The notes under the pieces were generated by a model, which did no database searches, had not been told where the DNA came from, and saw nothing but the letters and a program-made list of their open reading frames with translations. From Herbinix sp. (GTDB taxonomy: Bacteria > Bacillota > Clostridia > Lachnospirales > Lachnospiraceae): 37,794 nt of DNA. How positions within the stretch are numbered: the first letter of the stretch is position 1; every line of letters starts with the position of its first letter. Location: contig JAQVQL010000002.1 in the NCBI GenBank assembly GCA_028701595.1, positions 1 through 37,794 of the forward strand, in the 5' to 3' direction. Positions 7,465 to 33,172 of this stretch are shown here, piece by piece. The translations under genes were made by a program, and so were the position numbers.

Positions 7465-9828
7465 CTACAGTATCATAGTGAGACTTATTCTGTTCTTTGA
7501 TGCATCTACACCAAGAACCTTAACCTCAACAATATCTCCTACGCTTACTACATCTAAAGGATGCTTTACAAAGCGCTTGTTTGATAGCTGCGATATATGA
7601 ACAAGACCGTCCTGATGGACTCCGATATCCACAAATGCCCCAAAGTCTATGACATTTCGAACCGTTCCCTTTAATATCATGCCTTCCTTCAAATCAGCCA
7701 TTTCAAGCACATCGGTTCTAAGAATCGGCTTTGGCATCTCATCTCTGGGATCCCTTCCCGGTTTTTCTAATTCCTTGATAATATCGACTAATGTTATTTC
7801 ACCGATACCAAGCTCTTTAGAAAGCTTCGCCTTATCTCCTACCTTCTTGCTTAATATGGAATCATTATATCTCTGTCCATCATTACTGGAAAGAGATGAT
7901 TTCTGTTCATTTGATGACTCTTCCTGTAGAGGAGCGGATGCCCCTGACATAGCTGCTGCCAATGCCTTAGCAAGAGCTGTGTCCTGACCTTTTACCACAA
8001 GTCCGGGTGCTTTTTTATTTTGCTTAGTAGAGCTTTCCTTTTTAGGTTCATCCTTTAAAGTCCCCTTCAAAGAAACCTTTGTTTGAATCTGCTTCACGTC
8101 ATCTAGGGTCATGCCCAGCTTAACTAATAAAGTATTAGCAGCTTCATAGGATTCAGGATGAACACCGGTTGCATCCAAAGGGTTATCTCCATTTCGAATA
8201 CGCAAAAAGCCTGCGGATTGCTCAAAAGCCTTAGGTCCAAGCTTGGCCACCTTTAGTAGCTCTTTTCTATTATGGAAGCTACCATTTGCCTCCCTATATG
8301 CAACAATATTGTTAGCAATAGTCTTATTAACTCCTGATACATACTCTAGTAAGGATACAGATGCTGTGTTCAAATCAACACCAACCTTATTTACACAGTC
8401 TTCAACTACACCGGATAAAGCATCTGAGAGCTTTTTCTGATTCATATCATGCTGATACTGCCCTACACCTATAGATTTTGGATCTATCTTTACCAGCTCT
8501 GCCAAAGGATCCTGTAATCTTCTTGCTATGGATGCGGCACTTCTTTGTCCTACATCAAATTGTGGAAACTCCTCAGTAGCAAGCTTGCTTGCAGAATATA
8601 CAGAGGCACCTGCTTCATTTACAATTACATAGCTTATGGGCTTATTAATTTCCTTTAAGAAGTCCACTATAATCTTTTCCGATTCTCTGGAAGCAGTTCC
8701 ATTTCCAACTGAAATCATTGTTATATTATATTTGTCTATTAATTTAGCAAGTACTCTCTTTGATTCCTCTATTCTATTCTGAGGAGGGGTAGGATATATT
8801 ACAACGGTATCTAGAACCTTACCTGTACTATCAACAACAGCTAATTTACATCCGGTACGAAATGCAGGATCCCATCCAAGTACAATCTTACCTGTAATTG
8901 GGGGCTGCATTAGTAACTGAACAAGGTTTTTACCAAATACCTTTATAGCTCCGTCCTCAGCTTTTTCAGTTAAATCATTTCTGATTTCCCTTTCGATTGC
9001 GGGGGCGATCAACCTCTTATAGCTATCCTCAATTAACACCCTTAGTATATCATTGGTATGGATATTATCCTTGATAATCATTTTCTTTTCTAAGTAACGA
9101 AGAATTCTTTCCTCTGGAGCGGCTATTTTTACTGTAAGTATCTTCTCTTTTTCTCCGCGGTTTACTGCAAGTATTCTATGACCTGCTAGCTTTTCTATAT
9201 CCTCTTCGAAGTTATAATACATTTCATATACTGTTTCAGCCTTCTCGTCCTTGGCTACAGATATTAGTTTACCTTCCTTCATCGTAGCTTCTCGGATATA
9301 GCTTCTATATTCAGCTTGATCAGAAACCTCCTCGGCAAGGATATCCATGGCACCGGCAATGGCCTCATCAACAGTATTTACCTCTTTTTCCTCTGATATA
9401 AAGCTTATAGCCAGCTCGCTAATAGGTCTGTCTGTTTCTTGTGCCTTTATAATTTCAGCCAAACCATCAAGGCCCTTTTCTTTAGCAATTGTAGCTCTGG
9501 TCCTTCGCTTAGGTCTATATGGACGATACAAATCATCTACAAGCACCATGGTAGTAGCCTCAAGAATCTGCTTTCTTAACTCCTCTGTAAGCTTTCCCTG
9601 CTCCTCAATACTATTTAAAACCTGGTTCTTCTTATCCTCAAGGTTTCGTAGATACAAGAGTCTCTCGTGAAGATTTCTTAGCTGTTCATCATCTAAGGAG
9701 CCCGTAACTTCCTTACGATATCTTGCTATAAAAGGAATGGTGTTTCCCTCATCGATTAGCTGAACAGCTGCTTCTACCTGCTCCAGGCGTATATTCAGTT
9801 CTTCTTTCAGTTGCTTTAAAATATTCAT
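7465..9828 (-). CDS. tex: Tex-family RNA-binding transcription accessory protein
   Basis: Tex is a cytoplasmic nucleic-acid-binding protein related to eukaryotic Spt6. The 787-residue product begins with the Tex N-terminal helical domain (NTIPFIARYRKEVTGSLDDEQL). It continues with a YqgF/RNase H-like domain (VLGWDPAFRTGCKLAVVD, about 318-335) and tandem helix-hairpin-helix units (about 495-560). It ends in an S1 domain (about 710-787: GTVRNVIDFGAFVDIGVHQDGLVHIS). Relative to typical Tex (about 715-735 residues) it carries an extra linker of roughly 70 residues between HhH and S1, rich in Ser, Lys and Ala. SD GAGGAG lies 6 bases before ATG. It appears monocistronic. Confidence 0.95.
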   Translation of the reverse strand: MNILKQLKEELNIRLEQVEAAVQLIDEGNTIPFIARYRKEVTGSLDDEQLRNLHERLLYLRNLEDKKNQVLNSIEEQGKLTEELRKQILEATTMVLVDDLYRPYRPKRRTRATIAKEKGLDGLAEIIKAQETDRPISELAISFISEEKEVNTVDEAIAGAMDILAEEVSDQAEYRSYIREATMKEGKLISVAKDEKAETVYEMYYNFEEDIEKLAGHRILAVNRGEKEKILTVKIAAPEERILRYLEKKMIIKDNIHTNDILRVLIEDSYKRLIAPAIEREIRNDLTEKAEDGAIKVFGKNLVQLLMQPPITGKIVLGWDPAFRTGCKLAVVDSTGKVLDTVVIYPTPPQNRIEESKRVLAKLIDKYNITMISVGNGTASRESEKIIVDFLKEINKPISYVIVNEAGASVYSASKLATEEFPQFDVGQRSAASIARRLQDPLAELVKIDPKSIGVGQYQHDMNQKKLSDALSGVVEDCVNKVGVDLNTASVSLLEYVSGVNKTIANNIVAYREANGSFHNRKELLKVAKLGPKAFEQSAGFLRIRNGDNPLDATGVHPESYEAANTLLVKLGMTLDDVKQIQTKVSLKGTLKDEPKKESSTKQNKKAPGLVVKGQDTALAKALAAAMSGASAPLQEESSNEQKSSLSSNDGQRYNDSILSKKVGDKAKLSKELGIGEITLVDIIKELEKPGRDPRDEMPKPILRTDVLEMADLKEGMILKGTVRNVIDFGAFVDIGVHQDGLVHISQLSNKRFVKHPLDVVSVGDIVEVKVLGVDASKNRISLTMIL

Positions 9829-9940: not shown

Positions 9941-9980
9941 CAAGACAAGGGGACGGTTCTGTTGTCTTCCCCTTGTCTTG
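9941..9980. repeat. Hairpin repeat, GACAAGGGGACGG type, copy 1
   Basis: A perfect 13-bp inverted repeat (caagacaagggga / tccccttgtcttg) surrounds CGGTTCTGTTGTCT. It shares the core ACAAGGGGACGG with the larger hairpin at 10568-10643. Together they bracket the plus-strand metalloprotease-like gene. Similar GGGGACGG-containing intergenic hairpins are, to my knowledge, scattered in many clostridial genomes; no transposase is present here. Confidence 0.85.
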
Positions 9981-9990
9981 GTTAGCTTTC

Positions 9991-10019
9991 TTTACATCTT
10001 GAATAAATAGTTGTATAAT
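9991..10019 (+). promoter_or_regulatory. Promoter of the metalloprotease-like gene
   Basis: The -35 is TTTACA (9991-9996), followed by a 17-base spacer and -10 TATAAT (10014-10019). The -35 lies only 11 bases after hairpin repeat copy 1. Confidence 0.75.
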
Positions 10020-10063
10020 TAATGTAGTAATAGTAGTTATCATAGTAGGAAGGAGGAGTCTTT

Positions 10064-10567
10064 GTGATTGGGCCCATTCCTTATCAATATGGACCGATTG
10101 GTAATTATGCTGTCGGAAATGCGTCATTGGTCAAACCCACGGAGGCTGTTGACAAGGTCGCAATTTTGGATGCTGTCAAAAGAGATGAATTATCTGTCTC
10201 CGAAACCAGACCAGCCGAATGTCAGACCTGTAAGAACAGAAAATATGTAGATGGTTCAAATGATTCTAATGTATCATTTAAGACGCCCACACACATTTCG
10301 CCTGGGGCCTCCCATGCCATGGTCTCTGCCCATGAGAAGGAGCATGTGACCAATGCTTATAACAATGCAAGTCAAAAGGGCGGTAGGGTCGTGTATGCTT
10401 CTGTCAGTCTTAAGATGTCAGTATGTTCAGAATGTCATACTCCTTATGTAGCAGGTGGTGTTACCAGATCACAGATAAAATATGAAGCCTCCAATCCTTA
10501 TGAAAACAGCAGAAAATCCTTAGAAGGTAGCTTTGTTAAAGGCATGAATATAAATCAATGTATATAA
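10064..10567 (+). CDS. Putative HEXXH zinc metalloprotease (SprA-related family)
   Basis: The 167-residue protein carries a zincin motif HEKEH (His90-Glu91-x-x-His94) in SAHEKEHV. Upstream is the segment ECQTCKNRKY (Cys53, Cys56), followed by VSFKTPTHISPG. A second pair, CSEC, is at Cys121/Cys124. This layout matches a family annotated as putative metalloproteases related to SprA; its substrate is not known to me. There is no signal peptide or membrane segment, so it is probably cytoplasmic or non-classically released. The GTG start is supported by AGGAGG 7 bases upstream and a good sigma-A promoter. It is one of the few plus-strand genes, a single cistron bracketed by hairpin repeats. The two CxxC pairs could bind a structural zinc. 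Confidence 0.8.
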   Translation: MIGPIPYQYGPIGNYAVGNASLVKPTEAVDKVAILDAVKRDELSVSETRPAECQTCKNRKYVDGSNDSNVSFKTPTHISPGASHAMVSAHEKEHVTNAYNNASQKGGRVVYASVSLKMSVCSECHTPYVAGGVTRSQIKYEASNPYENSRKSLEGSFVKGMNINQCI

Positions 10568-10643
10568 GAGTGACAAGGGGACGGGGTTGCTGACACATCT
10601 TTATGTGTCAGCAACCCCGTCCCCCTGTCACTCCCTTGTCACC
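10568..10643. repeat. Long hairpin repeat, GACAAGGGGACGG type, copy 2
   Basis: Arms of 31 bases (10568-10598 and 10603-10633) pair with a single mismatch around a 4-base loop (CTTT). A further CCTTGTCAC follows (to 10643) that can pair with the start of arm 1 as an alternative. It begins immediately after the stop of the plus-strand gene and ends 6 bases before the lysC stop codon. It could therefore terminate both convergent transcripts. It shares ACAAGGGGACGG with the 9941-9980 copy. Confidence 0.9.
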
Positions 10644-10648
10644 TACAC

Positions 10649-11863
10649 CTATACTTGAGATAACAAAAACTTCTCATGTACTGCGTTCATTGCTTTTTCT
10701 ACATGGATATCATCAATTAATACTGTAACCCTAATTTCAGAGGTAGAGATCATCTTAATATTTACTCCTACATCATATAAGGCTTCAAACATTTTAGCGG
10801 CAACTCCGGCATTAGTCATCATTCCCGCGCCTACTATGGAGACCTTAGCTACACCCTTTTCCACGTCTAGCTTTTGGCACTTTAGACTTCCCTGGCGATG
10901 GCGTTCTATAGTAGCTATCGCTTCCTCAAGATCATCCTCTTTAACTGTGAAGCTGATATCCTTAGTTCCATCTCTACCAATGGATTGTAAAATGATATCA
11001 ACATTAACATTATGTCTTGCTAAATGGTTGAATAGCTTAAATGCAACACCAGGCTGATCCTCTAATCCAATTACTGCTATGCGGGCTGTGTTTTTGTCGG
11101 AAGCCACACCACTGACAAGCATTTTCTCCATATTTACTACCTCCTTAACAATGGTACCTTCATTTTGATTGATGCTGGAGCGAACAACCAGCTGTACGCC
11201 ATATTTCTTAGCCATTTCTACAGATCTATTATGCAATACCCCCGCTCCTAAAGAAGCTAGCTCAAGCATTTCGTCATATGTGATCTCATCTAACTTTCTT
11301 GCGGTAGGGACAATTCTCGGATCGGCTGTGTATACTCCATCAACATCCGTGTAAATCTCACACCTATCCGCATGAAGAGCTGCTGCCAAAGCCACTGCGG
11401 TTGTATCAGATCCCCCTCTGCCAAGAGTTGTATAGTTATCGAATTTGTTTACACCTTGGAAACCTGTAACTATAACTACCCGTCTATCTTGTAGTTCATT
11501 TTTTACTCTGTCTGTATCAATCCTTTTTATTCTTGAATTGCTATATACTGAGGTAGTATGCATTGCAACCTGATACGCATTTAATGATACTGCAGGCACT
11601 CCAATTGCATCCAGTGCCATCGCCATTAGAGCGACTGACATCTGCTCTCCTGTCGTAAGTAGCATATCCATCTCCCGTTTAGGAGCATTGGGGTTAATAT
11701 CCTTAGCCATATGAATTAAGGTATCGGTCTGCTTTCCCATTGCCGATAACACAACCACGATTTCATTGCCGTCTCTATAATCTTTTTCAATCCTCTTGGC
11801 AACACTAAATATTCTTTCCTTATCGGCGACTGACGTTCCGCCAAATTTCTTAACTATTAGCAT
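10649..11863 (-). CDS. lysC: Aspartate kinase
   Basis: Aspartokinase phosphorylates L-aspartate, the first step toward lysine, threonine and methionine. The 404-residue protein begins with the kinase signature KFGGTSVAD and has GRGGSDTTAVALAAAL and the DGVYTADPR segment. The C-terminal third holds two ACT domains (from about 265), the usual site of feedback control by lysine and/or threonine. Its length matches monofunctional Bacillus-type aspartokinases. SD AGGAGG precedes ATG by about 6 bases. It is the last gene of the ACT regulator-hom-ApgM-like-lysC run. Which amino acid inhibits it cannot be read from sequence. Confidence 0.95.
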   Translation of the reverse strand: MLIVKKFGGTSVADKERIFSVAKRIEKDYRDGNEIVVVLSAMGKQTDTLIHMAKDINPNAPKREMDMLLTTGEQMSVALMAMALDAIGVPAVSLNAYQVAMHTTSVYSNSRIKRIDTDRVKNELQDRRVVIVTGFQGVNKFDNYTTLGRGGSDTTAVALAAALHADRCEIYTDVDGVYTADPRIVPTARKLDEITYDEMLELASLGAGVLHNRSVEMAKKYGVQLVVRSSINQNEGTIVKEVVNMEKMLVSGVASDKNTARIAVIGLEDQPGVAFKLFNHLARHNVNVDIILQSIGRDGTKDISFTVKEDDLEEAIATIERHRQGSLKCQKLDVEKGVAKVSIVGAGMMTNAGVAAKMFEALYDVGVNIKMISTSEIRVTVLIDDIHVEKAMNAVHEKFLLSQV

Positions 11864-32674: not shown

Positions 32675-32681
32675 TAAAAAT

Positions 32682-32750
32682 AGTACCAGGCACCAAAAGA
32701 ACGGTACCAGGCACCTGCTGAGGAATATGCCTAGGTTGGTGCCTAGTACT
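32682..32750. repeat. Hairpin repeat, GGTACCAGGCACC type, copy 1
   Basis: The outer arms AGTACCAGGCACC (32682-32694) and GGTGCCTAGTACT (32738-32750) match at 12 of 13 positions. An extra direct copy GGTACCAGGCACC lies inside (32703-32715). It lies directly after the flgJ-like stop codon. A similar element is at 33123-33172. Confidence 0.85.
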
Positions 32751-32753
32751 GTA

Positions 32754-33095
32754 TTATTTAGTATATAAACTATTTCTTTTCATGGACTCATACAGCATCT
32801 GCGCCAGCCCAAGCTCTTGATTCTCAGTGGCACTCTTTGCATATTCCTGATAAAGCATATCACCGAAATTCTCTAGATATGGATTCTTCTTGTCCTCAGA
32901 GGGTATGGTCTTTTCCATCCCCTTCATGACTTGCTCCAGTAAATATGTCTCAAAGCTTTTACATACCTCCATTAACTCCTCATCGGTGGTAGGTTTACTT
33001 TGTAATTTATCTTCCAGAATACTCTCTCTTGATTTGTCTGCTGCCATAGCCCCGTTCATAAAATACTGTGAATTCGGATCTATATTAATGCTCAT
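32754..33095 (-). CDS. FlgJ-like rod-binding domain protein
   Basis: The 113-residue protein matches the rod-binding domain of FlgJ. It has KSRESILEDKLQSK and CKSFETYLLEQVMKGMEKTIP (about 45-65), then PYLENFGDMLYQEYAKSATENQELGLAQMLYESMKRN. The muramidase domain of Gram-negative FlgJ is absent, as in many Firmicutes. Such proteins chaperone rod assembly. Start ATG 33095 (MSINIDPNSQ) has GGAGAG about 9 bases upstream; the track's first 18 residues (MLFSWCLVP...) are translated repeat. It follows flhP and is the last gene of the mreB-flhO-flhP run, bracketed by two hairpin repeats. Confidence 0.87.
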   Translation of the reverse strand: MSINIDPNSQYFMNGAMAADKSRESILEDKLQSKPTTDEELMEVCKSFETYLLEQVMKGMEKTIPSEDKKNPYLENFGDMLYQEYAKSATENQELGLAQMLYESMKRNSLYTK

Positions 33096-33122
33096 TGTAG
33101 GCTTCTCTCCTCTCATTAATAA

Positions 33123-33172
33123 CGGTACCAGGCACCAGCTGAAAAGCATTCCCTTATTGGTGACTGGTACCG
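33123..33172. repeat. Hairpin repeat, GGTACCAGGCACC type, copy 2
   Basis: Arms CGGTACCAGGCACC (33123-33136) and GGTGACTGGTACCG (33159-33172) pair at 13 of 14 positions, with a 22-base loop. It occupies the gap between flhP and the flgJ-like gene and shares GGTACCAGGCACC with 32703-32715. Confidence 0.87.

Follow-up and report, generated by a model that had tools for sequence, protein, structure and literature searches.

The analysed window is a stretch of 37,794 nucleotides of Herbinix sp. (contig JAQVQL010000002.1 of assembly GCA_028701595.1, positions 1 to 37,794), and it contains a small HEXXH protein gene that is placed between two hairpins and between a tex-like gene and lysC. The features of the locus are listed by position.

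7465–9828, minus strand: tex-like gene, adjoining on the left here as it does in relatives
9941–9980, no strand assigned: left element, a short-form palindrome of the GACAAGGGGACGG family, AAGACAAGGGGACGGTTCTGTTGTCTTCCCCTTGTCTT
9991–10019, plus strand: predicted sigma-A promoter of the HEXXH gene, TTTACA-17-TATAAT, a block kept in close relatives
10064–10567, plus strand: gene for a protein of 167 aa with HEXXH and CxxC...CxxC, family unnamed, read as resident and outside the mobile element
10568–10633, no strand assigned: right element, a long palindrome of two inverted GTGACAAGGGGACGGGGTTGCTGACACAT end-sequence copies and a 4-nt loop
10633–10642, minus strand: extra outward terminal-repeat copy CCCTTGTCAC (GTGACAAGGG), common at copies of the hairpin family
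10649–11863, minus strand: lysC (aspartate kinase), adjoining on the right here as it does in relatives

The initial annotation had described two hairpins around one HEXXH gene, and its coordinates (9941–9980, 10064–10567 and 10568–10633) were reproduced. The left element has perfect arms of 13 bp (CAAGACAAGGGGA, 9941–9953; TCCCCTTGTCTTG, 9968–9980) with a 14-nt loop, and lies 10 bp ahead of the -35 box in the predicted HEXXH promoter. The arms of the right element (10568–10598 and 10603–10633) are paired at 30 of 31 bp with one mismatch. This element fills almost the whole of the 81-bp spacer that separates two convergent genes, HEXXH and lysC. The gap of 6 bases to the lysC stop (10649) is recovered when it is counted from the end of the extra outward copy at 10642. 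Both hairpins fold far more strongly than shuffled sequence, with z = -4.4 for the left element and -61.4 kcal/mol (z = -11.4; matched by 0 of 200 shuffles) for the right one. The sequence reported to be common to both, the 12-bp tag ACAAGGGGACGG, is exact in each hairpin (at 9945 and 10573). The two hairpins are related through this tag, but they represent different subfamilies, the short AAGACAAGGGGA..TCCCCTTGTCTT form on the left and the long GTGACAAGGGGACGGGGTT palindrome on the right.

The HEXXH gene represents a conserved unnamed Clostridial family with an invariant HExxH and two CxxC pairs; H90, E91 and H94, C53/C56 and C121/C124 are invariant across 24 sequences. Neither Pfam nor NCBIfam gives a family above cut-off for the protein, no sequence relative was found in the PDB, and its AlphaFold model is weak (pLDDT 64), with no Foldseek match at E ≤ 0.001. 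The predicted promoter block aligns with that of the relatives and is undamaged by the left element.

Both hairpins belong to a dispersed family. The proposed genome search for tagged hairpins revealed nine copies of ACAAGGGGACGG in the own genome, compared with one of a reversed control pattern, and 43 copies in the sister genome G210. The G210 copies are mostly pairs in opposite orientation, 40–50 bp apart, like the right element. Their architecture, GTGACAAGGGGACGGGGTT..TGTCAC-loop-GTGACA..AACCCCGTCCCCTTGTCAC, is that of the right-element type, which is also present at C304, C87 and C48 of the own genome and at many places in G210. The distribution is patchy, ranging from none to 43 copies, with at least one copy in 22 of 99 relatives and, across the class, in 88 of 291 genomes, although single copies in relatives are partly due to chance according to the control pattern. 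Because the motif with two mismatches gave 47 matches against 42 for the control, which is little excess, the count was restricted to exact or palindromic copies. A scan of named species returned at least 80 loci, many of them single chance matches; among the 80 loci listed, five are paired and six have a transposase within 1.5 kb, and Geosporobacter subterraneus (L270) is a two-sided case among the matches listed. A literature search for the motif letters found nothing relevant.

The long palindromes share one consensus. In an alignment of 16 of them, 98.9% of the cells pair, which is expected in itself because the copies had been selected as palindromes. Changes on both sides were observed in 11 of 28 pairs, compared with a shuffle mean of 4.2 and unreached in 500 shuffles, and these matched changes show that one arm changes along with the other. 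The left-element type also occurs elsewhere in the own genome, at C12 (AAGACATGGGGACGGTTCTGCTGTCCCCATGTCTT), C301, C323 and other places, and one short-form copy there (AAGACATGGGGA / TCCCCATGTCTT) has a matched change in both arms. Strong folding and family covariation could also be expected of a structured regulatory RNA, or of a functional element of the tex–lysC locus itself. However, the hairpins are absent from this locus in relatives, copies adjoin many unrelated genes, and no Rfam family was found at gathering score, the sub-threshold matches being mostly eukaryotic miRNA-type hairpin noise. We regard this explanation as very improbable.

The family shows a preferred position. As determined with simple ORF calls, which missed the right element owing to its arm mismatch (it would make 10/26), 9 of 25 palindromic copies are located in convergent gaps, compared with 21 of 176 other gaps (OR 4.2, p = 0.004). 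The median distance of palindromic copies is 14 bp to a stop codon versus 120 bp to a start codon. The right element, which directly follows a stop codon and lies between convergent genes, therefore occupies a site typical of the hairpin family. When 14–19 elements, an estimated number, were randomly placed in 2000–2400 gaps, two fell into neighbouring gaps in 7–16% of trials (3–4% with 9 elements only), so two hairpins around one gene need no special cause.

The same position raises the idea, already contained in the initial annotation, that the hairpins are shared transcription terminators, i.e. host terminators of tex, the HEXXH gene and lysC and not mobile DNA. Relatives do have ordinary hairpins in the HEXXH–lysC spacer, and T tracts accompany some of these (L161, L162); the very stable right hairpin occupies this convergent gap here. 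However, the GC-rich hairpin followed by a T tract that defines an intrinsic terminator is not found at the right element on either strand, and no terminator was called there. The left hairpin, placed ahead of the HEXXH promoter in a divergent gap, matches the terminator consensus only weakly, and the hairpin sequence also turns up at the ends of transposase genes and in many other, unrelated gaps. Host terminators are thus an unlikely account of the pair, while a hairpin of this kind may have a side role as a transcription barrier.

To follow the tex–lysC junction in close relatives, as had been suggested, we compared the loci of the HEXXH gene, which was matched in 74 of 200 family genomes (one match each in 73 of the 74, one split match) and in 11 of 34 genus genomes, the own genome included. 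In the ten other same-genus genomes, whose loci were cut at ±1.5 kb or at contig ends, tex adjoins the HEXXH gene in nine and lysC in eight, and the order where seen is tex(-) HEXXH(+) lysC(-), as in the window. None of these ten genomes has a GGGGAC hairpin at either junction of the HEXXH gene. In G202, approximately 1 kb separates the gene from lysC, and the G211 locus shows apgM and no lysC within its extent. In another genus (L079) the order tex-HEXXH-lysC-apgM-hom is kept, and many more genera keep part of the neighbourhood, with the orientation of the HEXXH gene relative to tex and lysC flipping from genus to genus. An exact empty site or target duplication is unreadable because the relatives are too diverged and their spacer sequences differ; the right element may have replaced the old terminator, or the remainder of the spacer may have been lost later.

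These comparisons bear directly on the proposal that the hairpins moved with the gene or captured it in the style of a composite element, for which the common 12-bp tag and the presence of exactly one gene in between would speak. The cassette idea fails because relatives carry the gene at the same tex–lysC place without the hairpins, and the shared gene order in other genera, the occurrence of the gene once per genome and the different subfamilies of the two hairpins all stand against it. Nor are the hairpins tied to gene gain, as copies at other sites stand singly beside unrelated genes, and the core accA gene of G231 is likewise found between two degraded copies. A gene that occurs only together with its flanking repeats is not what the genomes show, and the composite element was rejected on synteny; we give it next to no credence. 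Gene order indicates that the HEXXH gene has long resided between tex and lysC and was neither captured nor moved. A tidy pattern of one gene between two repeats can be a coincidence, and the same locus in relatives provides the best test.

The suggestion that the hairpins are REPIN/MITE-like and linked to a Y1 transposase is supported by sequence common to the dispersed palindromes and the ends of REP-associated transposase genes. The Y1 transposases of motif-carrying genomes form two groups, a short IS200-type and a type of ~250 aa (~255) with YCLMxNHxH. GGGGACG upstream or CGTCCCC downstream was observed at 15 of 20 ~255-aa genes compared with 0 of 8 short IS200-type genes (Fisher p = 4e-4), and repeats on both sides at 9 of 20 versus 0 of 8 (Fisher p = 0.03); the genomes were picked for motif abundance, which inflates the absolute association and leaves the contrast with the short transposases of the same set unaffected. 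Among 5327 background windows, 2 had GGGGACG/CGTCCCC on both sides. Inverted copies are legible in the end repeats, e.g. AACACAAGGGGACGGTTCTTTTGTGTT and TGTGTCAAGGGGACGGAGTTGTTGACACA, and such repeats were seen in relatives G211, G227, G406, G451 and others; the AGACAAGGGGACGGTTCTGTTGTCTT half of the left element is found among the repeats beside the G406 transposase gene.

In the same-genus genome G211, ATGTGTCGACAACCCCGTCCCCTTGTCAC lies a few bases downstream of a gene for a 253-aa transposase; this sequence is close to the right half of the right element in the window. The G211 protein contains NHLH (HUH) and YIFQNP (class 2 YxxxNP) and matches Pfam Y1_Tnp above cut-off (2.4e-13); its match to NCBIfam REP_Tyr_transpos (E 7.8e-19, 68 bits) is under the model cut-off of 80. 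A search for an HTH tail at the C-terminus gave weak matches below cut-off (E 0.07–0.09). The own genome has six Y1 matches, one of which, at G000:C304:1963-2172 (L015), is a decayed 111-aa remnant of a REP-type transposase fused in frame to a terminal repeat. No intact ~255-aa REP-type transposase was found in this MAG (79% complete), so present mobility in the own genome is at most putative.

Among known systems, the elements most resemble TIRYT/TIRtron repeats and REPINs. TIRYT genes are flanked by inverted repeats, some with GGGGWSAS, a motif that is common to some described TIRs, not all, and is not strictly defining, and TIR families are dispersed and often dimers (Di Nocera et al. 2013, PMC3733652). 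Correspondingly, the dispersed repeats match the inverted repeats that flank a RAYT-like Y1 gene in relatives and at the own-genome remnant, contain a GGGGAC core within long inverted repeats, and include many dimers. The transposase has the NHxH and YxxxNP motifs (HUH and class 2) at ~240–260 aa, which agrees with the ~240 aa of TIRYT (G211, 253 aa). In contrast, GGGGWSAS itself is not found in the window, where GGGGACGG matches 7 of 8 positions and differs at position 7; the host is from Clostridia, and the palindromic dimers are long, with additional GTGACAAGGG copies in tandem on the outside. The survey of Quentin et al. 2018 (PMC6006769) placed most TIRYT in TnpAY1 subclass 2.1, reported that genes of this subclass lack REP-like sequences nearby and left the link open, whereas repeats are found here beside transposases that were assigned to this subclass by motif and length, not by tree.

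REPINs and BIMEs, the subject of Bertels and Rainey 2011 (PMC3116915), are a further comparison. Such elements also consist of two inverted units in one hairpin, are linked to a Y1 transposase (RAYT), and are non-autonomous, extragenic and often 3′ of genes. The present arms, however, are terminal repeats, not canonical REPs, and their foot is GTGACA or AAGACA, not the canonical GTAG or GTGG. CGTC-tagged REPs (PMC3733652) are similarly palindromic and extragenic with CGTC on one strand; however, they have an unpaired terminal CGTC and stems of 8–9 bp, while the stems here are 13–38 bp and the elements are linked to transposase genes. In the right element, CGTC is paired within the 31-bp stem, and the left element has a 13-bp stem and no terminal CGTC. 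IS200/IS605 share the HUH/Y1 catalytic domain but lack the repeats, as GGGGACG was present at 0 of 8 short IS200-type transposases in these genomes. In their working the elements are comparable to a REPIN/MITE, and by appearance they form a new family among TIRYT-type repeats; their movement is inferred.

Very probably, the two hairpins are non-autonomous miniature palindromes (MITE/REPIN-like) of a transposase-linked Clostridial GACAAGGGGACGG family, and the HEXXH gene is resident. The palindromes would be made from the terminal inverted repeats of this family, whose end sequences flank genes of ~255-aa REP-associated Y1 tyrosine transposases (TIRYT type). We infer that the transposase moves the hairpins, and that it most likely nicks, copies and pastes them via single-stranded hairpin intermediates. 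Their copies settle mainly in convergent gaps and directly after stop codons. One copy would have entered the HEXXH–lysC terminator gap, and a second copy, of the other subfamily, the tex–HEXXH spacer ahead of the promoter. Dispersed hairpins of Clostridia are thereby linked to the ends of a Y1 transposase class that had been surveyed as without REP partners. More tentatively, Clostridial subclass-2.1 (TIRYT) transposases might drive terminal-repeat palindromes that prefer, and can replace, host terminator hairpins, as at HEXXH–lysC, a mobile element thus taking over the 3′ ends of transcripts.

Several minor observations concern other copies and families. In G231:C68 (L219 2007-2885), accA stands between two degraded single units of the hairpin family, and the beginning of its reading frame is overlapped by the unit at the accD-accA junction. 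In G227:C11 (L213 2026-2669), two near-identical palindromes ~550 bp apart bracket a DeoR-like reading frame, and one of them lies at its start and appears to shorten it; the accA and DeoR-like names were given by eye from translations. Copies in L202 (G210:C243) and L241 (own C224) are surrounded by A and T runs (AAAAAAGAAGTGAC..GTCACTTCTTTTTT; ..CTTGTCTTTTTTT), as if they lay within terminators or acted as such. The window itself contains a second, unrelated palindrome family (GGTACCAGGCACC..GGTGCCTAGTAC) at 32675–33170; a transposase in G212 (L180) has GGTACCAGGTAC inverted repeats, and one in G201 (L179) has GGTGCCTGACCCC. The two hairpins of this family in the window, 421 bp apart, enclose another small gene, of 131 aa (32754–33149).
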